A stretch of DNA of 32,998 nt from Oscillospiraceae bacterium (GTDB lineage Bacteria > Bacillota > Clostridia > Oscillospirales > Oscillospiraceae). A program made the translations under genes and the position numbers. Every line of letters starts with the position of its first letter. Positions within the stretch are counted from its first letter, which is position 1. Positions 1-32,998 of the stretch are shown here, piece by piece. The DNA lies in assembly GCA_017465745.1 (NCBI GenBank), contig JAFTVM010000018.1:1-32998 (forward strand). The letters are read 5' to 3'. Under the pieces are notes generated by a model. The model was given only the letters and a program-made list of their open reading frames with translations. It made no database searches and had not been told where the DNA came from.

Positions 1-139
1 AGGGGACGGGTTCCCCGTCCCGTGAACCTTCCGATTACGAATTCGCCGATACAAATGTCAATTCGCCAGGTTTTACCGCCGGGACGGGCGACCCGTCCCC
101 TACAATTGAAAACGTTAAGTGTACGACAAACTACAATTT
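1..139 (-). repeat. 177-bp palindromic element, copy 1 (cut by window start)
   Basis: This is the reverse orientation of the element found complete at 24685 and 30215. The last 139 bases are present, ending in the terminal repeat AAACTACAATTT; about 38 bases lie outside the window. It contains the two GC-rich hairpins built on GGGACGGG/CCCGTCCC. One clear difference from the other copies is in a hairpin loop (TCG instead of TCA). It lies 17 bp before the likely TTG start of the YihY-type gene, and its open frame runs without a stop into that gene. Confidence 0.9.
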
Positions 140-7733: not shown

Positions 7734-7767
7734 AATGCTGAATCAGGGGATACCACAATTCAGCATT
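7734..7767. repeat. Short AT-rich palindromic repeat (family B, copy 1)
   Basis: Arms AATGCTGAAT (7734-7743) and ATTCAGCATT (7758-7767) can form a 10-bp hairpin in the gap between the MBL hydrolase and hemZ. The same arms and flanking CCACAATTCAGCATT with ATTCTGCATT-like sequence recur inverted at 23289-23346. There is no U-tract directly after the stem, so I do not call it a terminator. Confidence 0.75.
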
Positions 7768-7793
7768 CATAATTCATCATTCTGCATTGCGCA

Positions 7794-8408
7794 TCAGCGC
7801 ATATAGGGATTCAGGCGGCGTTCCCGCTCCAGGGTGGTGGCTTCGCCGTGACCGGGGAGGACGGTGTAGTCGCCTTCCAGCTCGGCAAGACGCTCCAGGG
7901 AGCACTGAATGGTGTCCCAGTCGCCGCCGGGCAGGTCGGTGCGGCCGCAGGAGCGGGCAAAGAGGGTATCGCCGGAGAACAGGGCGTTCTCACAGATAAA
8001 GCACATGGAGCCGGTGGTGTGGCCGGGGGTGGCCAGGGCGTGGAAGGTCAGACCGCCGGCATGGATGATCTCATCGTCCTCGCAGAACTGGACTTCGCAG
8101 AAATCGCAGTTTGCCAGGGGAAAGTAGTGTTCGATGACGGGGCTGGGGAACTGGGACCAGTCGCTTTCGCTCATCCACAGCTTGCAGCCGGTGGCTTCCA
8201 CCAGTGCCTGAACCGCGCCCACGTGGTCAAAGTGGCCGTGGGTCAGCAGGATGGCGTCCAGGGTCAGTCCCAGTTTGTCCAGGGCCTTCAGGATGGTTCC
8301 GGCCTGATAGCCGGGATCGATGACGGCGCAGGTTTTGGAAGACTCTTCGTGGACGATGTAGCAGTTGGTCTGGTAATCGCCCAGGGGGAGGGTATAGATT
8401 TTCAGCAT
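7794..8408 (-). CDS. MBL-fold metallohydrolase (glyoxalase II-like)
   Basis: This 204-residue metallo-beta-lactamase fold hydrolase is of the compact GloB/YqgX-like group. The zinc ligands are visible: THGHFDH (His57, His59, Asp61, His62), TPGHT (His130), SGDTLF (Asp147) and LPGHGEAT (His187). It lacks the C-terminal substrate domain of classical glyoxalase II, as do most Firmicutes homologues in this neighbourhood. A thioester or related substrate is therefore likely but not assigned. It starts two bases after dtd ends, with GGAGGTAACT just before the ATG, and is followed by hemZ. The rel-dtd-MBL-hemZ order is conserved in many Firmicutes. Confidence 0.85.
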   Translation of the reverse strand: MLKIYTLPLGDYQTNCYIVHEESSKTCAVIDPGYQAGTILKALDKLGLTLDAILLTHGHFDHVGAVQALVEATGCKLWMSESDWSQFPSPVIEHYFPLANCDFCEVQFCEDDEIIHAGGLTFHALATPGHTTGSMCFICENALFSGDTLFARSCGRTDLPGGDWDTIQCSLERLAELEGDYTVLPGHGEATTLERERRLNPYMR

Positions 8409-17795: not shown

Positions 17796-17902
17796 AAATT
17801 GTAGTTTATCCTTTCGATGAGAGATGTGTTGCGAACCAAGCATGTCATTGCCACGTCGGTACGTGACTGCGATGTTTGAAATACAACGATAAACTGCAAT
17901 TT
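17796..17902 (+). repeat. 107-bp palindromic element sharing ends with the 177-bp family
   Basis: The ends AAATTGTAGTTTATC and GATAAACTGCAATTT form a 15-bp terminal inverted repeat with one mismatch, the same termini as the 177-bp elements. The interior differs completely: it lacks the GGGACGGG hairpins and instead has an imperfect stem centred on CACGT-CGGT-ACGTG. It lies in the leader of the MATE gene. It carries no reading frame of note. Confidence 0.8.
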
Positions 17903-23270: not shown

Positions 23271-23288
23271 AAACAGACTCCTAAATGT

Positions 23289-23346
23289 GAAATGCAGAAT
23301 TCATAATGCAGAATGCTGAATTGTGGGATGGTTATCATTCAGCATT
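23289..23346. repeat. Short AT-rich palindromic repeat (family B, copy 2)
   Basis: The arms AATGCTGAAT (23312-23321) and ATTCAGCATT (23337-23346) are the same as at 7734-7767 but inverted, with flanking AATGCAGAATTCATAATGC sequence also related. It occupies the gap between ruvA and ruvB. Confidence 0.75.
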
Positions 23347-24684: not shown

Positions 24685-24861
24685 AAATTGTAGTTTGTCG
24701 TACACTTAACGTTTTCAATTGTAGGGGACGGGTCACCCGTCCCGGCGTTAAAACCTGGCGAATTGACATTTGTATCGGCGAATTCGTAATCGGAAGGTTC
24801 ACGGGACGGGGAACCCGTCCCCTACATTGGTGTACCATATCGGAACGATAAACTACAATTT
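24685..24861 (+). repeat. 177-bp palindromic element, copy 2 (complete)
   Basis: The complete element runs from AAATTGTAGTTTGTCG to CGATAAACTACAATTT. Inside are two GC-rich hairpins (GGGACGGG-TCA-CCCGTCCC and GGGACGGG-GAA-CCCGTCCC) whose outer arms GTAGGGGACGGG and CCCGTCCCCTAC can also pair with each other across the element. The 310-base gap from 24617 to 24926 holds this repeat, the ruvCAB promoter on one side and about 65 bases of eut leader on the other. A unique difference from other copies is GCGTTAAAA in place of GCGGTAAAA. Confidence 0.92.
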
Positions 24862-24926: not shown

Positions 24927-26009
24927 ATGGAGCGATTTGGGATGGATACGAAGATCCTCGCCGGGGCGGGGGCTGTTGCAGCGCTGAGCGGCTTCGGGGC
25001 GAAGCGGGTCTTCGTGGTGACGGATCCTTATTTTATGAAAAACGGCGTGGCGGCCCGGGTAGGAGCGGCCTGCCGGGCGGAGGCGGTGGAATATTTTGCG
25101 GATGTGAAGCCGGACCCCACCGTGGAGCTGGCGGCGGCGGGGACGGCGAAGCTGAAGGCCTTCGGGGCGGACCTGGTGGTGGCCCTGGGCGGCGGCAGCG
25201 CCATGGACTGCGCCAAGGCCATGGTGTATTTCGAGGGGACGGGCCTGCGTCTGGTGGCCATCCCCACCACCTCCGGCTCCGGCTCCGAGGTGACGGATTT
25301 CGCCATCCTGACCCACGGGGAGGTGAAGCATCCCCTGGTGGACGAGAAGCTGCGGCCCTGGGCTGCCATCCTGGACAGCGACCTGCTGATGGAACTGCCG
25401 AAGGGGCTGATCGCGGACACGGGCTTCGATGTGCTGGCCCACGCACTGGAAGCGTTTGTGGCAAGAGATACCGGGTATTTCTCCGGCGCCATGGCGAAGG
25501 AAGCGTTCTGCGCCGCCTGGGAGACGCTGCCCCGGTCCTACCGGGGCGATTCAGGCGCGCGGCTGCCCATGCATCAGGCAGCCACCATGGCGGGGCTGGC
25601 CTTTACCCATGCGGGACTGGGGCTGTGCCATGCCCTGGCCCATGCTCTGGGCGGGCAGTTCCATGTGCCCCATGGGCGGCTGAATGCGATCCTGCTGCCC
25701 AGCGTCATCAGCTTTAACGCGCCTGCCGCCGGAGCGAAATACGCGGCACTGGCCCGGGCGGCAGGAATCGGGGGCAGCGTGGATACCATCGCTGTCCGGA
25801 ATCTGAGGGGAAGCCTGTGCCGCCTGCGGCGGGAGCTGGGGCTTCCCGAAACGCTGGCCCAGGCGGGAGTCGCCCCTGCTGATGTGAAAATGGCGGCGGG
25901 GGACATTGCCAGGGCCGCCCTGGGGGATCCCTGCTGTGCGTCCAATCCCCGGACCGCGGATGAGGGGGCGGTGCGGGCAATCCTGACGGAGGTGTCAGGC
26001 AATGGCTGA
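24927..26009 (+). CDS. eutG: Iron-containing alcohol dehydrogenase (EutG/PduQ-like)
   Basis: This 360-residue group III alcohol dehydrogenase reduces acetaldehyde to ethanol and recycles NADH inside the microcompartment. The NAD site GGGSAMD is at 88-94, TTSGSGSEVT is at 114-123, and the metal ligands are Asp168 and His172 (FDVLAHALEA), His235 and His249 (LCHALAHALGGQFHVPHG). It resembles the shorter PduQ/EutG type of clostridial operons. It is the first gene of the cluster, with AAAGGCGG before the ATG. It overlaps eutA by eight bases, tying it to the operon. The precise aldehyde is inferred from context. Confidence 0.85.
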   Translation: MERFGMDTKILAGAGAVAALSGFGAKRVFVVTDPYFMKNGVAARVGAACRAEAVEYFADVKPDPTVELAAAGTAKLKAFGADLVVALGGGSAMDCAKAMVYFEGTGLRLVAIPTTSGSGSEVTDFAILTHGEVKHPLVDEKLRPWAAILDSDLLMELPKGLIADTGFDVLAHALEAFVARDTGYFSGAMAKEAFCAAWETLPRSYRGDSGARLPMHQAATMAGLAFTHAGLGLCHALAHALGGQFHVPHGRLNAILLPSVISFNAPAAGAKYAALARAAGIGGSVDTIAVRNLRGSLCRLRRELGLPETLAQAGVAPADVKMAAGDIARAALGDPCCASNPRTADEGAVRAILTEVSGNG

Positions 26010-27333
26010 GCTTTTGAGCGTGGGACTGGACGTGGGCACCACTTCGACGCAAATGGTCGTGTCGAAGCTGGCGGTGGAAAATAAGGCCGGGGCCTTTTCT
26101 GTGCCGGAGATGGAGATCGCGGCCCGGGAGATCCTTTACAAAAGCCCCGTGTATTTTACACCCCTGATGGGGCAGGATCTGGTGAACGGTGCTGCGCTGC
26201 GGGATATCGTGGAGCAGGAATATGAGAAAGCGGGGATCCGCCGCACCGACGTGGACACCGGCGCCATCATCATCACCGGAGAGACCAGCCGCCGGGAGAA
26301 CGCCCGGGCGGTGCTGGAAGCGCTGGCGGATCTTGCCGGGGATTTCGTGGTGGCCACGGCGGGACCGGATCTGGAAAGCGTCCTGGCGGCCAAGGGCGCC
26401 GGGGCAGTGGAGTATTCTGCCCGAACGGGAAAAAACGTGCTCCATTTTGATATCGGCGGCGGAACTTCCAACATCGCCCTCATCGAGGACGGGAAGATCA
26501 CTGCCACCACCTGCCTGAATGTGGGCGGGCGGCTGGTGAAGATCGACCGGGACCGGCGGATGTGCTATATTTCCCCGGTGCTGGAGGGGCTGTTCCATGG
26601 AAAAAACGGAGCCTTTGCGGACCGGGCGGAACTGGAGGCCCTGGCGGAAAAGCTGGCGGCCGTGCTGGAAATGGCGGCGGGGCTGCGGGAGCCGGATGCG
26701 TGGCTGGACAGGCTGGAAACGAAGGAGACTGCCACGCCGGTGTGGGCACTGGCTCGCAATGACACTGCGAAGGTGATTTCCTTCTCCGGGGGCGTGGCGG
26801 ACTGCATTGAGTCAGAGCGGAACTGGCTGGAATTTGGAGACATCGGGCCGCTGCTGGGGCAGGCCATCCGGAAAAGCAGGCTCTGTCAGGGAGATTATAT
26901 GCTGGGGGCGGAGACCATCCGGGCCACCGTCATCGGGGCCGGGGCACACAGCGCCCAGCTTTCCGGCAGCACCGTGTTCCATCAGAAGATCGATTTTCCG
27001 CTGAAGAATCTGCCGGTGGTGGAGAAAACCCAAGATTTGGCCCGGCTGGATGGGCCGGGGGTACTGGCAGTGCGGGAACGGGCGGCGGATTACAGCGCGG
27101 TGCAGGCCATGGCGGCGAAGATCGCCGGGGCGGTGCGGCAGCCGGTGTACGTGGCGGCGCAGCAGGACATGGCCAAGGCTCTGGGGGTGCAGCTGGCGCT
27201 GCGGCTGGGGACGGATGCGAAGATCCTCTGCATCGACCGGGTGCGGCTGGGGGAGGGTGACTACCTGGACGTGGGCGCCCCCGTGGGCCCGGCGATCCCG
27301 GTGGTGGTGAAGACCCTCGTCATGGGCAAGTAA
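26002..27333 (+). CDS. eutA: Ethanolamine ammonia-lyase reactivase EutA
   Basis: This 443-residue actin/Hsp70-fold ATPase exchanges damaged cobalamin out of EutBC. The phosphate-1 motif GLDVGTTSTQMVVSKL is at the N-terminus, the phosphate-2-like DIGGGTSNIALIEDGKI is near 150, and FSGGVADCIE is in the adenosine region. Family-specific AREILYKSPVYFTPL is also seen. It is slightly shorter than Salmonella EutA. Translation is coupled to the upstream dehydrogenase by overlap, and it is followed after 11 bases by eutB with a strong AAAAGGAGG site. Confidence 0.93.
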   Translation: MAELLSVGLDVGTTSTQMVVSKLAVENKAGAFSVPEMEIAAREILYKSPVYFTPLMGQDLVNGAALRDIVEQEYEKAGIRRTDVDTGAIIITGETSRRENARAVLEALADLAGDFVVATAGPDLESVLAAKGAGAVEYSARTGKNVLHFDIGGGTSNIALIEDGKITATTCLNVGGRLVKIDRDRRMCYISPVLEGLFHGKNGAFADRAELEALAEKLAAVLEMAAGLREPDAWLDRLETKETATPVWALARNDTAKVISFSGGVADCIESERNWLEFGDIGPLLGQAIRKSRLCQGDYMLGAETIRATVIGAGAHSAQLSGSTVFHQKIDFPLKNLPVVEKTQDLARLDGPGVLAVRERAADYSAVQAMAAKIAGAVRQPVYVAAQQDMAKALGVQLALRLGTDAKILCIDRVRLGEGDYLDVGAPVGPAIPVVVKTLVMGK

Positions 27334-27344
27334 AAGGAGGAAAT

Positions 27345-28709
27345 ATGAAACTCAAAACAACACTGTTGGGAAAAACATATGAATTCCGGGACATCAAGCA
27401 GGTTCTGGCCAAGGCCAATGAGGAGAAATCCGGGGATAAGCTGGCGGGCCTGGCGGCGGAAAATGCCCAGGAGCGGGTGGCGGCGAAAGTCGTACTGGCG
27501 GACCTGACAATGGGAGACCTGCGGGAGAATCCGGCGGTGCCCTACGAGACCGATGAGGTCACCCGGATCATCCAGGATGACGTGAACGAGAAGATCTACG
27601 CCGAGATCCGGGGCTGGAGCGTGGCCCGGTTCCGGGAGTGGCTGCTGGACGAAAATACCACCGGCGCTGACATCCGCCGCATCAGCCGGGGTCTGACGGC
27701 GGAGATGGTGGCGGGGGTCTGCAAGCTCATGGGCAATCTGGACCTGATCTACGCGGCAAATAAGATCCACATCACCGCCCACTGCAACACCACCATCGGC
27801 CTGCCGGGGACCCTGAGCTGCCGATTGCAGCCCAACCACACCACCGACGACCCCGAGGGCATCACGGCGTCCACGTTGGAGGGCCTCAGCTTCGGTGCGG
27901 GGGACGCGGTGATCGGCCTGAATCCCGTGACGGATTCTCCGGAGCAGGTGGGTAAAGTACTGCGGCGGTTCCAGGAGATCAGGGAGCACTGGGAGATCCC
28001 CACCCAGATCTGTGTCCTGGCCCATGTCACCGCCCAGATGAAGGCGGTGCGCCAGGGGGCGCCCTGCGACCTGATCTTCCAGTCCATTGCAGGCAGTGAA
28101 AAGGGCAACGCGGCCTTCGGCTTCAATGCCGCAACGATCGAAGAAGCAAGGCAGCTTCTGCTGCGGGACGGTACCGCAGAGGGGCCAAACGTGATGTATT
28201 TCGAGACGGGCCAGGGCTCGGAGCTTTCTTCCAATGCCCACCACGACACCGACCAGGTGACCATGGAGGCCCGGTGCTACGGCTTCGCTAAGCGGTTCCA
28301 GCCGTTCCTGGTGAATACCGTTGTGGGCTTCATCGGGCCGGAGTATCTCTACGACGCCCGGCAGGTGACCCGGGCGGGGCTGGAGGATCACTTCATGGGC
28401 AAACTGACGGGCATCTCCATGGGCTGCGACTGCTGCTACACCAACCACATGAAGGCGGATCAAAATGATATTGAGAACCTGGCGAGCCTGCTGACTCTGG
28501 CGGGGTGCAACTATTTCATGGGTATCCCCCATGGCGATGACATCATGCTGAATTACCAGACCACCGGCTTCCGTGAAACGGCGGCCCTGCGGGAACTGAC
28601 AGGAAAGACGGCCATCCCTGAATTCCAGCGGTGGCTGGAGAAGATGGGCTTCGTGGAGAACGGGCGTCTGACGAAAAAGGCCGGCGACGGTTCGCGTTTG
28701 CTGTTCTGA
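27345..28709 (+). CDS. eutB: Ethanolamine ammonia-lyase large subunit EutB
   Basis: This 454-residue TIM-barrel catalytic subunit uses adenosylcobalamin to convert ethanolamine to acetaldehyde and ammonia. Length and sequence match EutB: MKLKTTLLGKTYEFRDIKQVLAKANEEKSGD at the start, the NKIHITAHCNTTIGLPGTLS stretch, GLNPVTDSPEQV, YFETGQGSELSSNAHHD and GCDCCYTNHMKADQND. No interruptions are seen. It forms the (EutB-EutC)2 trimer with the product of the following gene, 14 bases downstream. Confidence 0.97.
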   Translation: MKLKTTLLGKTYEFRDIKQVLAKANEEKSGDKLAGLAAENAQERVAAKVVLADLTMGDLRENPAVPYETDEVTRIIQDDVNEKIYAEIRGWSVARFREWLLDENTTGADIRRISRGLTAEMVAGVCKLMGNLDLIYAANKIHITAHCNTTIGLPGTLSCRLQPNHTTDDPEGITASTLEGLSFGAGDAVIGLNPVTDSPEQVGKVLRRFQEIREHWEIPTQICVLAHVTAQMKAVRQGAPCDLIFQSIAGSEKGNAAFGFNAATIEEARQLLLRDGTAEGPNVMYFETGQGSELSSNAHHDTDQVTMEARCYGFAKRFQPFLVNTVVGFIGPEYLYDARQVTRAGLEDHFMGKLTGISMGCDCCYTNHMKADQNDIENLASLLTLAGCNYFMGIPHGDDIMLNYQTTGFRETAALRELTGKTAIPEFQRWLEKMGFVENGRLTKKAGDGSRLLF

Positions 28710-28723
28710 TTGGGGGTAATGAT

Positions 28724-29596
28724 TTGAATAAGGAAGAATTGTCGGCGCTGGTGGCGGACATCCTGCGGGGGATGGAGGCGCCTGTGAACTGCGAAAAACC
28801 ACCCGAGAAGATGGAAATGGAGCGGGTGGCGGCGGATGTGTCCAATATGGATCTTCGAAAGCTCTATCTGGTGGAGGATGCGGCTGATGGAGAGCGGTTC
28901 CGGAAGATGAAGCTGCGCACCCCCGCCCGGCTGGGCAGCGGCAAGGCGGGGCCAAGGTATAAGACCCTGACCATGCTGCGGTTCCGGGCGGATCACGCAG
29001 CGGCTCAGGATGCGGTGTTTTCCCAGGTGGCGGAGGACTTCGCGGAAAAGAACGGCCTGGTGCCGGTGCAGACCAGATGCAAGGATAAGGACGAATACCT
29101 GACCCGCCCGGATCTGGGGCGGTGCTTCGATCAGGAGAATTCCCAGAAGATCCGTTCCGCCGTGGCGGGTACACCACGGGTGCAGATCGTGGTGGGAGAC
29201 GGGCTTTCCTCCGCGGCCATCACCGCCAACGCCATGGACTGCCTGGGGGCCATCCGGGACGGCCTGAAGCTCAAGGGCATCGAATCGGGAAAGCCCCTCT
29301 TCGTCCGGTACTGCCGGGTGGGCGCGGGAGACGCCGTGGGGGATATCACGGGCTGTGAGCTGGTGTGCGTACTGGTTGGGGAGCGGCCCGGGCTGGTGAC
29401 GGACAAGAGCATGTCGGCCTATATCACCTACAAGCCCCATACCGGGGTGTCGGAATCCGCCCGGACCGTCATTTCCAACATCCATGCCCAGGGGACTCCC
29501 GCCGTGGAGGCAGGGGCGGCGGTGGCGGAGCTGATCGATACCATTTTGAAGCGGAAGGTTTCCGGCGTGGGGCTGCTGACGGAGGCGGGGGCATGA
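28724..29596 (+). CDS. eutC: Ethanolamine ammonia-lyase small subunit EutC
   Basis: This 290-residue small subunit completes the cobalamin site of the lyase. Family features are TPARLGSGKAGPRYKT, the VVGDGLSSAAITANA motif near the cobalamin site, RYCRVGAGDAVGD and GERPGLVTDKSMSAY. TTG at 28724 is chosen as the start: GGGGGT is seven bases upstream and the family N-terminus (NKEELSALVADILRGM) begins here, whereas the open frame from 28631 overlaps eutB. The N-terminal amphipathic helix may direct the enzyme into the shell, as proposed for EutC. Its stop overlaps the eutL ATG. Confidence 0.95.
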   Translation: MNKEELSALVADILRGMEAPVNCEKPPEKMEMERVAADVSNMDLRKLYLVEDAADGERFRKMKLRTPARLGSGKAGPRYKTLTMLRFRADHAAAQDAVFSQVAEDFAEKNGLVPVQTRCKDKDEYLTRPDLGRCFDQENSQKIRSAVAGTPRVQIVVGDGLSSAAITANAMDCLGAIRDGLKLKGIESGKPLFVRYCRVGAGDAVGDITGCELVCVLVGERPGLVTDKSMSAYITYKPHTGVSESARTVISNIHAQGTPAVEAGAAVAELIDTILKRKVSGVGLLTEAGA

Positions 29597-30216
29597 TCCC
29601 GGTGAAGATCCTGGCGGTGCGGCAGATCGCCAACGCCGCGCCGTCGCTGCGGCAGGGGCTGGGGGCCCCGGTGGGGTATCCTGCCCTGGGATTGATTACG
29701 ACGGACTGCGATGACGCCACCTACATTGCCCTGGACGCGGCTACCAAGGCGGCGGATGTGCGGGTGTGCTATGCCCGGAGTCTTTACGCCGGGGCTGCCA
29801 ACGCTTCCACTCCCAACGCCGGGGAGGTCATTGGCGTTCTGGCGGGACGGAATCCGGAGGATCTGGCCAGCGGCATGGAGGCGGCGGTGGCAAGCTTGCA
29901 GCGGGTGGGCTTCGAGGAAGCAAACGGCGTGCCGTACCTTGCCTACACCGTCAGCTCCGTGGGATCCTTCCTGGCGGCAGAGGCAGGGGTAAGACAGGGA
30001 ACGGCGCTGGCGTACCTGATCGCCCCGCCGCTGGAGGCCATGTACGGTCTGGACGGTGCGCTGAAAGCGGCGGATGTTGAGTTATGTAAACTTTACGCGC
30101 CGCCCAGTGAAACGAATTTCGGCGGGGGATTGCTCAAGGGTACCCAGTCCGCCTGTGACGCGGCCTGCAAAGCCTTCGCAGAACGGGTGGCGGAAGTAGC
30201 AGGAAGACCACGGTAA
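29593..30216 (+). CDS. eutL: Microcompartment shell protein EutL
   Basis: This 207-residue tandem-BMC (trimer-forming) shell protein has two circularly permuted BMC domains. Conserved EutL segments include GLITTDCDDATYIALDAATKAADV, SLYAGAANASTPNAGEVIGVLAGRNPEDL and the C-terminal YAPPSETNFGGGLLKGTQSAC. EutL forms gated central pores in the shell. The ATG overlaps the eutC TGA. The last bases meet the next repeat exactly: the final TAA is one T from the gene and two A residues from the element. Confidence 0.95.
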   Translation: MIPVKILAVRQIANAAPSLRQGLGAPVGYPALGLITTDCDDATYIALDAATKAADVRVCYARSLYAGAANASTPNAGEVIGVLAGRNPEDLASGMEAAVASLQRVGFEEANGVPYLAYTVSSVGSFLAAEAGVRQGTALAYLIAPPLEAMYGLDGALKAADVELCKLYAPPSETNFGGGLLKGTQSACDAACKAFAERVAEVAGRPR

Positions 30217-30391
30217 ATTGTAGTTTGTCGTACACTTAACGTTTTCAATTGTAGGGGACGGGTCACCCGTCCCGGCGGTAAAACCTGGCAAATTGACATT
30301 TGTATCGGCGAATTCGTAATCGGAAGGTTCACGGGACGGGGAACCCGTCCCCTACATTGGTGTACCATATCGGAACGATAAACTACAATTT
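30215..30391 (+). repeat. 177-bp palindromic element, copy 3 (complete)
   Basis: This has the same ends and length as copy 2, with only small changes such as GGCAAATTGACA in place of GGCGAATTGACA. It is inserted between eutL and eutE within the operon and supplies two bases of the eutL stop codon. It places two strong hairpins in the eut transcript and a TTGACA sequence pointing toward eutE. Confidence 0.92.
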
Positions 30392-30418
30392 GAAGATTAT
30401 ATTCAGAATGGAGCATTT

Positions 30419-31846
30419 ATGGAATTTGACAAGGACTTAGCGGCGCGGCAGGAGGCCCGCTGTCTGTGCCGCAGGGCGGAGGAAGCCCAGAAGATCCTGG
30501 CGGGCTTCCCGCAGGAGAAGCTGGACGCCATTGTGGAGGCGGCAGCGTCAGCTTTCGCAAGCCGTGCCGGGGAGCTGGCGAAGATGGCGGCGGAGGAGAC
30601 CGGCTTCGGCAATGCCGCCGACAAAACGGTAAAGAACCGCTTCGCCTCGGAAACTGTAGCCGGGGCTATCCGGGGCATGAAGACCGTGGGGCTGCTGGGG
30701 GAGGACCGGGCGCGGAAGCTCTGGGAAATCGGCGTGCCGGTGGGGGTCATTGCCGCCATCGTGCCCAGCACCAACCCCACGTCCACCATCTGCTACAAGG
30801 CGCTGATCGCCCTGAAATCCGGCAACGCCATCGTTTTTTCACCCCATCCCAAGGCGATCCGCTGCTCCCTGGCGGCGGCAAAGATCGTGGCGGAGGCAGC
30901 AGAGCGTGCCGGGGCGCCCGCGGGGAGCGTCAGCTGCCTGACGCTGGCGTCCATGGCCGGGTGCCAGGAGCTGATGGGGGCGGCCGAGGTGCGGCTGATC
31001 CTGGCCACAGGCGGGCCGGCTATGGTGAAGGCGGCTTATTCCTCCGGCAAGCCCGCCATCGGTGTGGGTGCCGGCAACGGCCCGGCCTATATCCACCGCA
31101 GCGCCCACGTGAAACAGGCGCTCTCGTGTATCCTGCGGTCAAAGTCCTTTGACTATGGCACGGTCTGCGCTTCCGAGCAGAGCATCATCGTGGAAAGCTC
31201 CATGGAAGAAGACGTGAAGCGGACGGCCGCGGGAATGGGATTCTATTTTATGGATGCGGCCCAGGCGGGGCTTCTGGCGAAGCTGCTGTTCAAGCCCAAC
31301 GGGGCATTGAACCCTGAAATTGTGGGCAAACCCGCAGTGAAGCTGGCGGAAATGGCAGGCTTCCCAGTGCCGGATGGGACGAAGATCCTGGTGGCCCGGG
31401 AGCAGGAGGCGGGGCCGACCCGGCCCTACTCCATGGAAAAGCTATGCCCGGTGCTGGCATTTTTCGTCATGGACAGCGAGGATGCCATCCTTGCCAAGGC
31501 CATTGAGGTGCTGACCCACGAAGGCGCGGGGCACACCTTTGCCATCCACGCACAGGACAGAAAGGTGATCGAGAAATTTGCCCTGCAGGTGCCGGTGAGC
31601 CGGTTCCTGGTGAATACCCCGGCAGCTTTGGGCGGCATCGGGGCCACCACAGGGCTGTTTCCTGCCCTGACCCTGGGCTGCGGCGCAGTGGGGGGCAGTT
31701 CGTCCTCCAATAACATCGGCCCCATGGATCTGATCAATATCCGCCGGGTGGCCTGGGGGACGGAAGAACAGGCGGCAACGGAAACAAGGGTGGACGAGGA
31801 TCTGGTGGAGCTGGTGACCAGGAAGATTCTGGAACGACTGAAGTGA
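30419..31846 (+). CDS. eutE: CoA-acylating acetaldehyde dehydrogenase EutE
   Basis: This 475-residue ALDH-fold enzyme converts acetaldehyde to acetyl-CoA with NAD and CoA. The catalytic Cys250 lies in DYGTVCASEQS. The nucleotide region shows PSTNPTSTICYKALIALKSGNAIVF, and the C-terminal GGIGATTGLFPALTLGCG is typical. The first 20 residues (DKDLAARQEARCLCRRAEEA) form an amphipathic helix like the encapsulation peptides of microcompartment cargo. GGAG is about seven bases before the ATG. The gene is the first after the inserted repeat, so its transcription relative to eutL may be altered. Confidence 0.95.
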   Translation: MEFDKDLAARQEARCLCRRAEEAQKILAGFPQEKLDAIVEAAASAFASRAGELAKMAAEETGFGNAADKTVKNRFASETVAGAIRGMKTVGLLGEDRARKLWEIGVPVGVIAAIVPSTNPTSTICYKALIALKSGNAIVFSPHPKAIRCSLAAAKIVAEAAERAGAPAGSVSCLTLASMAGCQELMGAAEVRLILATGGPAMVKAAYSSGKPAIGVGAGNGPAYIHRSAHVKQALSCILRSKSFDYGTVCASEQSIIVESSMEEDVKRTAAGMGFYFMDAAQAGLLAKLLFKPNGALNPEIVGKPAVKLAEMAGFPVPDGTKILVAREQEAGPTRPYSMEKLCPVLAFFVMDSEDAILAKAIEVLTHEGAGHTFAIHAQDRKVIEKFALQVPVSRFLVNTPAALGGIGATTGLFPALTLGCGAVGGSSSSNNIGPMDLINIRRVAWGTEEQAATETRVDEDLVELVTRKILERLK

Positions 31847-31864
31847 TTCTGAAAGGAGCGTATT

Positions 31865-32170
31865 ATGGACACGAATTCTCTGGGCATGATCGAAACGAAG
31901 GGGCTCATCGGGGCCATTGAGGCGGCGGACGCCATGGTGAAGTCTGCCAATGTAACATTGGTTGGCAAGGAGCAGGTGGGCGGCGGTCTGGTGACCGTCA
32001 TGGTGCGCGGCGATGTGGGCGCGGTGAAGGCGGCCACTGACGCCGGTGCTGCCGCGGCGGAAAAGGTGGGGGAGCTGATCTCCGTCCACGTCATCGCCCG
32101 GCCCCACACAGAGGTGGACGCCATCCTGCCCAAGGAGCGGCGAAATCCCCCCGTCCCCGGTAAGGGCTGA
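31865..32170 (+). CDS. eutM: BMC hexameric shell protein (EutM/PduA type)
   Basis: This 101-residue protein has a single BMC domain: [25 protein letters not shown], the [24 protein letters not shown] stretch and [15 protein letters not shown]-like end. It forms the flat hexamers that tile the microcompartment facets. The C-terminal tail ([14 protein letters not shown]) is longer and more basic than in minimal EutM. AAAGGAG precedes the ATG. Its TGA shares one base with the next start codon. The eut context supports EutM, but the sequence alone does not separate it from PduA. Confidence 0.93.
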
Positions 32171-32856
32171 TGCTCTACACGGAGCAGCATGTCCGGGAGA
32201 ATATCCGCACCCGGGAGGGGGAGCGGGTGTTCTACCTGGGCAAAGGGGACCGGCTGACCCCGGGGGCAAGGGACTGGCTGACCCGGGAGCGGGTGGCGAT
32301 CCTGCCCGGGGAGGCGGCAAAGCCCCAGGAATACCGCCTCCCCAACGGAGCGGTGCTCCGGGAGAAGCCTGAGGAGCTGACCCATCTGCAGGGCAATGTG
32401 CTGGTGCCCAAGACCCACCCCCGGATCGCATTCCGGGGGGCCATGGATAGTCTGGAAGCGGAGCTGCTGTTATGTCAACTTAATTGTCCCAATCTGGCAA
32501 ATCAGCTGGGGGAGATCCTGGATCTGGCCCGGCGGCTGATCCGGTGCGAGGTGCTGGATGAGGCTGTCCCTGTGCAGAAGCTGTGCGGCCTGACGGAGGA
32601 GGAGCAGCGCTCCCGCAGCCACAGACCGCAGGACTATTTCGGGATCCCTCATTTTATGCCGTCCGCTGCCGATGGGGCGGTGGTGCTGGCGCTGAACAAA
32701 TGCCGGTGCGCCGCCCGGCAGGCGGAGCTGGCGGCGGTCCGGGCGTTTACCGACGCCGACGGCAGGATCGCCCGGGGAGACATTCTGAAAGCCCTGAACC
32801 GGATGAGCAGTATGATCTATATTCTGATGTGTATGGTCAAGAGCGGGAAATTGTAG
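32170..32856 (+). CDS. eutT: EutT-like cob(I)alamin adenosyltransferase
   Basis: This 228-residue protein resembles the EutT type of corrinoid adenosyltransferase, which makes adenosylcobalamin for EutBC. LVPKTHPRIAFRGAMDSLEAELLL (about 78-101) is the family's recognisable core. PHFMPSAADGAVVLALNKCRC (160-180) supplies a His and paired Cys residues that could hold the metal, although I could not match the exact metal motif described for Salmonella. The gene is translationally coupled to eutM. Its last two codons and TAG stop (AAA TTG TAG) are the first bases of the following repeat, so the native C-terminus may have been replaced. Confidence 0.82.
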   Translation: MLYTEQHVRENIRTREGERVFYLGKGDRLTPGARDWLTRERVAILPGEAAKPQEYRLPNGAVLREKPEELTHLQGNVLVPKTHPRIAFRGAMDSLEAELLLCQLNCPNLANQLGEILDLARRLIRCEVLDEAVPVQKLCGLTEEEQRSRSHRPQDYFGIPHFMPSAADGAVVLALNKCRCAARQAELAAVRAFTDADGRIARGDILKALNRMSSMIYILMCMVKSGKL

Positions 32857-32998
32857 TTTGTCGTACACTTAACGTTTTCAATTGTAGGGGACGGGTCACC
32901 CGTCCCGGCGGTAAAACCTGGCGAATTGACATTTGTATCGGCGAATTCGTAATCGGAAGGTTCACGGGACGGGGAATCCGTCCCCTACATTGGTGTAC
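32848..32998 (+). repeat. 177-bp palindromic element, copy 4 (cut by window end)
   Basis: The first 151 bases of the element are present, beginning AAATTGTAGTTTGTCG within the eutT 3' end and running to GGTGTAC at the window edge. A unique change, GGGGAATCC in place of GGGGAACCC, breaks one pair of the second hairpin. Orientation is the same as copies 2 and 3. Confidence 0.92.

Follow-up and report, generated by a model that had tools for sequence, protein, structure and literature searches.

An outer palindrome around a GTAG-tagged REP pair in recently spread 177-bp repeats of an Oscillospiraceae bacterium

The window, a 32,998-nucleotide stretch of DNA from a gut Oscillospiraceae bacterium, is the complete contig C14 of a draft genome (2,731,955 bases, 122 contigs) that contains dozens of nearly identical 177-bp repeats. 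The four copies listed in the original prediction were all confirmed at their positions (Table 1). Two of them are complete, and the other two are incomplete because the contig starts or stops there. A fifth element with terminal inverted repeats (TIRs), diverged from the others, was absent from that list. Two of the copies meet genes directly: the stop codon of an upstream eutL-like ORF (29365-30216) coincides with the first bases of the second complete element, and the copy at the contig end provides the stop codon of the ORF at 32170-32856. By our reading of the ORFs, the region 24927-32856 resembles a cluster of ethanolamine-utilisation/microcompartment genes, with element copies at its edges and between genes. 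The window also contains a pair of 45-bp inverted repeats of the AATTCATAATGCAGAATG type (7750-7794 and 23285-23329; 78% complementary), which is unrelated to the TIR family.

Table 1. Elements of the TIR family in the window, with the parts of the copy under study.
Feature	Position	Strand
Complete 177-bp composite element (copy under study)	24685..24861	+
Left 19-bp TIR, AAATTGTAGTTTGTCGTAC	24685..24703	+
Right 19-bp TIR, AAATTGTAGTTTATCGTTC	24843..24861	-
Core (REPIN): two inverted GTAG REP hairpins and spacer, 105 bp	24721..24825	.
Left REP: GTAG and GGGACGGG hairpin	24721..24743	+
Right REP, inverted	24803..24825	-
Second complete 177-bp element	30215..30391	+
Copy ending at the contig end (element positions 1-151)	32848..32998	+
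Copy ending at the contig start (element positions 1-139)	1..139	-
Older, diverged 107-bp TIR element without GTAG REP; interior with a GTCATTGCCA stretch	17796..17902	.

Copy number and spread of the 177-bp repeat

The 177-bp element is predicted to fold strongly (z = -8.3 as DNA and -8.5 as RNA), and none of 200 shuffled sequences was equally stable. Its terminal inverted repeats are 19 bp long, somewhat longer than the roughly 15 bp first proposed. Each window copy differs from the consensus of nine complete copies at one position, either in a REP loop (positions 51 and 130) or in the central spacer (64 and 76). The proposal that differences lie mostly in or near hairpin loops therefore describes the four window copies, but it does not extend to the genome, where 11 of the 20 differences among the nine complete copies are located in the two 19-bp TIRs. 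At the gathering score, Rfam gave no match for the window or for five further loci.

A search of the whole genome with the TIR AAATTGTAGTTTRTCGTWC, allowing up to two mismatches, yielded 63 forward and 63 reverse matches (126 ends), compared with 0 for the reversed pattern. With up to three mismatches within the fetched stretches of this genome, the count was likewise 126, but the set of ends was different. When the 177-bp sequence itself was used as the query, 106 candidates were returned, 40 of which were scored. Ends of the 177/99-bp subfamily with at least 30 bases outside numbered 39 of the 'left' type and 38 of the 'right' type, and therefore correspond to about 38 insertions. The nine complete copies, a set that omits one 169-bp copy carrying a deletion, show 1-5 differences each from their consensus. 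Their mean pairwise identity is 0.976 (0.955-0.989), while the 40-bp flanks are only about 0.27 identical on both sides. The combination of near identity inside and unrelated flanks outside indicates that the unit bounded by AAATTGTAGTTTRTCGTWC is mobile, and supports the earlier idea of a recently spread palindromic element that encodes no transposase.

The full-length element was found in none of 39 relatives. Seven of them matched the 177-bp query in short pieces, the longest being 106 bp at 72% identity (G018); the remaining listed matches are short and correspond to REP hairpins. Plasmid and phage collections gave no match to the element. Two viral-contig records contained an identical stretch in opposite orientation with no TIR partner seen, which we took as chance.

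The assembly has 122 contigs and hence 244 ends; among the fetched contigs, at least 52 ends lie inside TIR elements, and 48 of these 52 leave 135-167 bases between the TIR and the edge. This spacing suggests that a short-read assembler broke in the repeat. The TIR elements thus account for many contig breaks of the draft genome.

The REP core and the outer TIR family

The core of the element (positions 37-141) consists of a pair of inverted GTAG-tagged REP hairpins and is thus a REPIN. Each half has GTAG ahead of a hairpin in the range of about 20-40 nt, with GTAGGGGACGGGTCACCCGTCCC on one side and its inverted counterpart on the other. In the 177-bp copies the REP pair spans 105 bp, and the 99-bp copies have a single hairpin. 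REPs of this kind adjoin RAYT (REP transposase) genes in the same genome, which has three Y1_Tnp/RAYT genes, on contigs C64, C65, and C66. All three proteins contain the HxH motif. Against the 80-bit cut-off of NCBIfam NF047646, the C64 protein scored over (89.5) and is named as a REP-associated tyrosine transposase, and the C65 and C66 proteins fall under the cut-off of that family (70.8 and 68.4). A homologue of element positions 28-151, and hence excluding the outer TIRs, lies next to the C65 gene, with 100 of 125 aligned columns identical. The C64 gene is flanked on both sides by inverted TCCTGTAGGGCGGGGTCATGACCCCGCCGACC, the REP of other TIR elements in this genome. Nineteen RAYT loci were tried and 14 gave a frame; exact inverted GTAGGG-type flanks were present at six of the 14, and outer-family TIRs flanked none. 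Relatives of the C65 protein in named genomes come from a 'Bacillota bacterium' and an 'Oscillospiraceae bacterium' metagenome assembly (60-61% identity), followed by Oscillospiraceae at 45% and Patescibacteria at 36%. The RAYT genes of C65 (L074:1459-1947) and of G017:C48 (L040:1320-1780) contain REP-like palindromes in their own reading frames, at two similar places in the two species, with further copies adjoining.

We then related the REPs to the outer ends. Only exact GTAGGGGACGGG half-sites were counted, because the one-mismatch background was high (117 versus 49 in the control). For 83 of the 87 exact half-sites in this genome, a TIR start (12 bases, up to two mismatches) follows no more than 200 bp further outward; the other four lie on C65, beside the RAYT gene, and on C67, C89, and C122. 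REPs of the type adjoining a RAYT gene also occur inside TIR elements of other species. They are present in five of eight TIR elements in G005, where all 10 matches in 200 kb fall inside such elements, and in four of 11 in G047 (up to five substitutions), where 30 matches in 190 kb fall both inside and outside elements. In G053, one was recognised by eye in the single element seen (L153). The REP of the 177-bp element is abundant in G017, a genome without TIRs, and is located there by and inside a RAYT gene.

The whole 177-bp unit, in contrast to a REPIN, is not bounded by REPs, as the outer TIRs lie 36 bp beyond GTAG at both ends. The outer ends are, moreover, common to elements with other interiors. 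TIR-bounded elements range from 35 to 367 bp, have interchangeable interiors, and in many cases contain no GTAG REP (for example, seven of 11 in G047 and three of eight in G005 lack a RAYT-type REP). Pairing of TIRs in the home genome gave lengths of 35 to 337 bp, with 35 bp representing an empty palindrome. In the 177-bp elements the interior holds two inverted GTAGGGGACGGG REPs, and in the 99-bp elements a single hairpin; further interiors consist of GTAGGGCGGGGTCATGACC REPs, different GTAG palindromes, stretches of the GTCATTGC type, or nothing but short spacers. We obtained 32 TIR pairs from G106 (388,587 bp), eight from G005 (200,000 bp), 11 from G047 (189,782 bp), and 17 from G105 (264,715 bp). 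Apart from one 5,125-bp pair in G106, these elements measure 72-367 bp and again vary in their interiors, and their outer arms include AAATTGTTGTTT, AAATTGGTGTTT, and AAATTGTAGTTT. Palindromes of the form GTCATTGCGAGG...CCTCGCAATGACAG are nested in TIR elements at L135:2879-3170, L217:2740-2980, and C42:10659-10995 of the home genome, and some of them contain yet another palindrome (GTCATCCCGAGCG). The comparison with REP-like repeats made at the outset accordingly holds for the core, but not for the outer TIR palindrome, which bounds elements with and without REPs. Likewise, the impression of an unrecognised family applies to the outer part, whereas the core belongs with the GTAG-tagged REP pairs associated with RAYTs.

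With a looser TIR pattern (controls 0-3), the family was detected in 51 of 101 sampled genomes of the genus, the home genome included; 15 had at least 20 ends and seven more than 100 (G005, 592; G106, 447; G047, 420; G105, 269; G072, 191; G055, 131; the home genome, 130). In a sample of 197 genomes from the order, the 195 outside the genus had no more than six ends each, compared with up to seven in the control. Since these counts are at background, the TIR family looks genus-restricted at the present sampling.

Target sites, movement and alternative readings

Target duplications of 2-12 bp were sought at offsets of 0-5 on both sides of 33 complete elements. None was found in the 396 tests (best z 2.2), extending to these 33 elements the earlier observation on two complete copies. 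The complete unit, with the outer ends as its limits, has thus recently spread to many unrelated places without duplicating target bases. Nucleotides immediately beyond the ends are biased: TTC occurs at 59 of 126 ends and NGT at 28, and position -7 is G (65) or A (34). The bias in G105 is similar (TTC 12, TTT 9, and AGT 7 of 53; G at -7 in 30). The flanks were then scored in 33 elements, which remained from 38 tabulated elements after removal of five pairs in which one 'end' was an internal ATATTGTGG site. Exactly one TTC end was present in 22 of these, compared with 16.1 expected (p 0.03), which is a slight hint of oriented insertion. The two flanks of an element match each other better than flanks of different elements over 20-30 bases in G106 and G047 (z 2.1-3.1); G005 shows no such matching (z -0.8 to 1.6), and the home genome deviates in the opposite direction (z -1.3 to -2.0). 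Outside the TIRs of G106 (L197-L216) and G047 (L227-L236), conserved arms of the form CGG..TT....CAGCA....GR extend to about -22, a hint of one more enclosing palindrome layer.

The autonomous element with the same ends to which the original prediction pointed did not appear: no copy with a transposase was found in about 240 kb of TIR surroundings in the home genome and about 1.04 Mb of the four TIR-rich relatives G106, G005, G047, and G105. Three longer TIR pairs were considered and set aside as candidates. Inside the 1,395-bp pair on C58 lies what we read as an alanine-racemase ORF, and a separate 99-bp element forms one end of this pair; one end of the 1,986-bp pair on C64 is a separate 169-bp element; and the 5,125-bp pair in G106, with unlike cores at its ends, was read as two elements.

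On balance, we favour, with moderate confidence, the reading that the 177-bp repeats are non-autonomous mobile elements built of nested palindromes, which are moved in trans through their outer ends and contain a RAYT-cognate REPIN. That the outer palindrome with its 19-bp TIRs encloses a REPIN of the kind adjoining RAYT genes in the same genome was directly observed.

A less likely possibility is that a RAYT (HUH, Y1) moves the whole unit as one long REPIN, binding the GTAG hairpins of the core and cutting at the outer ends. The three RAYT genes of the genome, one of them beside a homologous core, would fit this scenario, and so would the missing duplication, as in single-strand transposition. 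The distance of 36 bp from GTAG to the outer end, found at both ends in most REP1 elements listed, also agrees with it, but the distance differs between species (about 20-45 bp), and identical outer ends occur on elements without a GTAG REP. RAYT profile matches are present in six of the seven genomes with more than 100 TIR ends; the exception, G106 (92% complete, 447 ends), has no match, although the gene could lie in missing DNA, and the match in G105 is in two pieces only. RAYT-like Y1 genes detected by Pfam occur in 56 of the 101 genus genomes, many of them TIR-poor, so that RAYT presence is a weak predictor of TIR number. Additionally, the homology beside the RAYT gene ends before the outer TIRs. 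Nineteen RAYT loci were tried and 14 gave a frame; exact inverted GTAGGG-type flanks were present at six of the 14, and outer-family TIRs flanked none.

Next in rank, and also improbable, is a classical MITE of a DDE insertion sequence, the autonomous copy being absent or unassembled and the duplication missing or too short. Clear TIRs, no coding capacity, high copy number, and near identity are what such an element would display. The uniform lack of duplications described above argues against it, as does the finding that, in the parts of genomes covered, no transposase gene lay between paired TIRs.

The eutL junction bears on a further alternative, in which only REPINs move and land in pre-existing, fixed outer palindromes. 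The search for empty sites covered this junction, for which 24 loci of relatives were fetched and 22 aligned at the 3' end of the gene. TIR elements with other arms and cores are situated at the corresponding place after eutL in G072 and within a few bases of it in G105. Related palindromes lie near it in G106 and G047, and the remaining 18 aligned loci have none or other repeats. The alignment yielded no clean empty site, and no base-level junction could be drawn because sequence past the gene has diverged too far. In L117 and L134 (from G104 and G008), other repeat families hold this gene-end position after eutL, namely a CATTGCGAGG palindrome and a TIR-less REP dimer. Fixation of copies at identical sites in relatives, which would speak against recent spread, was thus touched at this one site, in G072 and G105, with cores other than ours. 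Some sites or outer palindromes may therefore predate their present cores: either the place was reused, or an old outer palindrome changed its core. The latter, core exchange in fixed palindromes, could count against the reading we favour, and landing of this kind has been described for Anabaena GTAG-15 dimers (PMC3733652). The 177-bp copies are, however, as similar in their outer arms as in their cores, which is unlike independent landings in old palindromes, and we regard movement of REPINs alone as quite improbable. An assembly or binning artefact or contamination, at which the contamination estimate of 7.08% and the many copies at contig ends might hint, is scarcely credible given complete copies within contigs with unrelated flanks and the recurrence of this outer family across independent genomes in the genus.

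Returning to nested palindromes moved in trans, we judge that the outer ends, rather than the REPs, define the mobile unit, because REP-less elements share these ends and G106 lacks a RAYT match. The fold and the absent duplication suggest a single-strand, hairpin-based mechanism. An enzyme acting in trans would recognise the outer palindrome, probably when single-stranded DNA has folded into a hairpin. The RAYT-cognate REPIN would be another mobile element, which at some time inserted into the centre of an existing outer palindrome and may now be copied along with it. The anatomy of the elements points to this entry; no before/after pair was seen.

More tentatively, the elements could belong to a genus-restricted 'matryoshka' superfamily, in which the outer TIR palindrome has its own duplication-free mobility, its centre receives RAYT REPINs as well as GTCATTGCGAG-type and CTCCCC-type palindromes, and REP/RAYT sequences spread as cargo. 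REP/RAYT systems are usually described as mobilising their own hairpins only. In at least four species, REP pairs are here enclosed by an unrelated palindrome that appears to be mobile in its own right. The nesting provides a natural setting in which to ask whether landing favours the centres of palindromes, and which enzyme moves TIR palindromes without duplication.

Comparison with known systems

Bacterial MITEs such as Correia/NEMIS and ERIC are short, TIR-bounded, non-coding, and present in high copy number, and the 177-bp element resembles them in all four respects. By description, it is set apart from them by the lack of target duplication and of a parent insertion sequence in the DNA covered.

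Searches of open-licence literature returned no report of such elements in Oscillospiraceae, and the strings AAATTGTAGTTT, GTAGGGGACGGG, and TGTCATTGCGAG led to unrelated titles only. The core resembles the GTAG REPs and REPINs associated with RAYTs (PMC3733652, PMC3116915, PMC8266576) in the GTAG before a GC-rich hairpin, the inverted pairs, the RAYT-adjacent homologue, and REP types that vary between species together with the RAYT neighbourhood. The present unit is, in contrast, larger, and its boundaries are unrelated TIRs, which also delimit REP-less elements.

PMC3733652 describes GTAG REP dimers within long palindromes and TIR-flanked tyrosine transposases ('TIRtrons', RAYT genes), and the words Firmicutes and Clostridi- are absent from its text. 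The GTAG-15 dimers of Anabaena variabilis described there are, like ours, REP dimers nested in a larger palindrome, and empty target palindromes were, according to that text, not found in A. variabilis; the outer palindrome here, in contrast, is found around many different interiors and also in a nearly empty form of 35 bp. The RAYT loci of this genus also differ from the TIRtrons of that account (PMC3733652) in that none of the 14 with a frame is TIR-flanked.

Set side by side from descriptions, SMR-A of the archaeon Haloquadratum (PMC3119063) is likewise a small element of about 100 bp with TIRs, no target duplication, and no known parent, found within other palindromic elements. The elements of this genus share the TIRs and the absent duplication, had no parent in the part of the genomes covered, and are 35-367 bp long compared with about 110 bp. 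SMR-A inserts into palindromes close to the termini of other elements, whereas the TIR element here is the container. REP dimers in palindromes and similar small mobile repeats are therefore already known, but the outer part appears undescribed, and what is new is the genus-wide outer TIR family together with the repeated nesting of RAYT-cognate REPINs within it.
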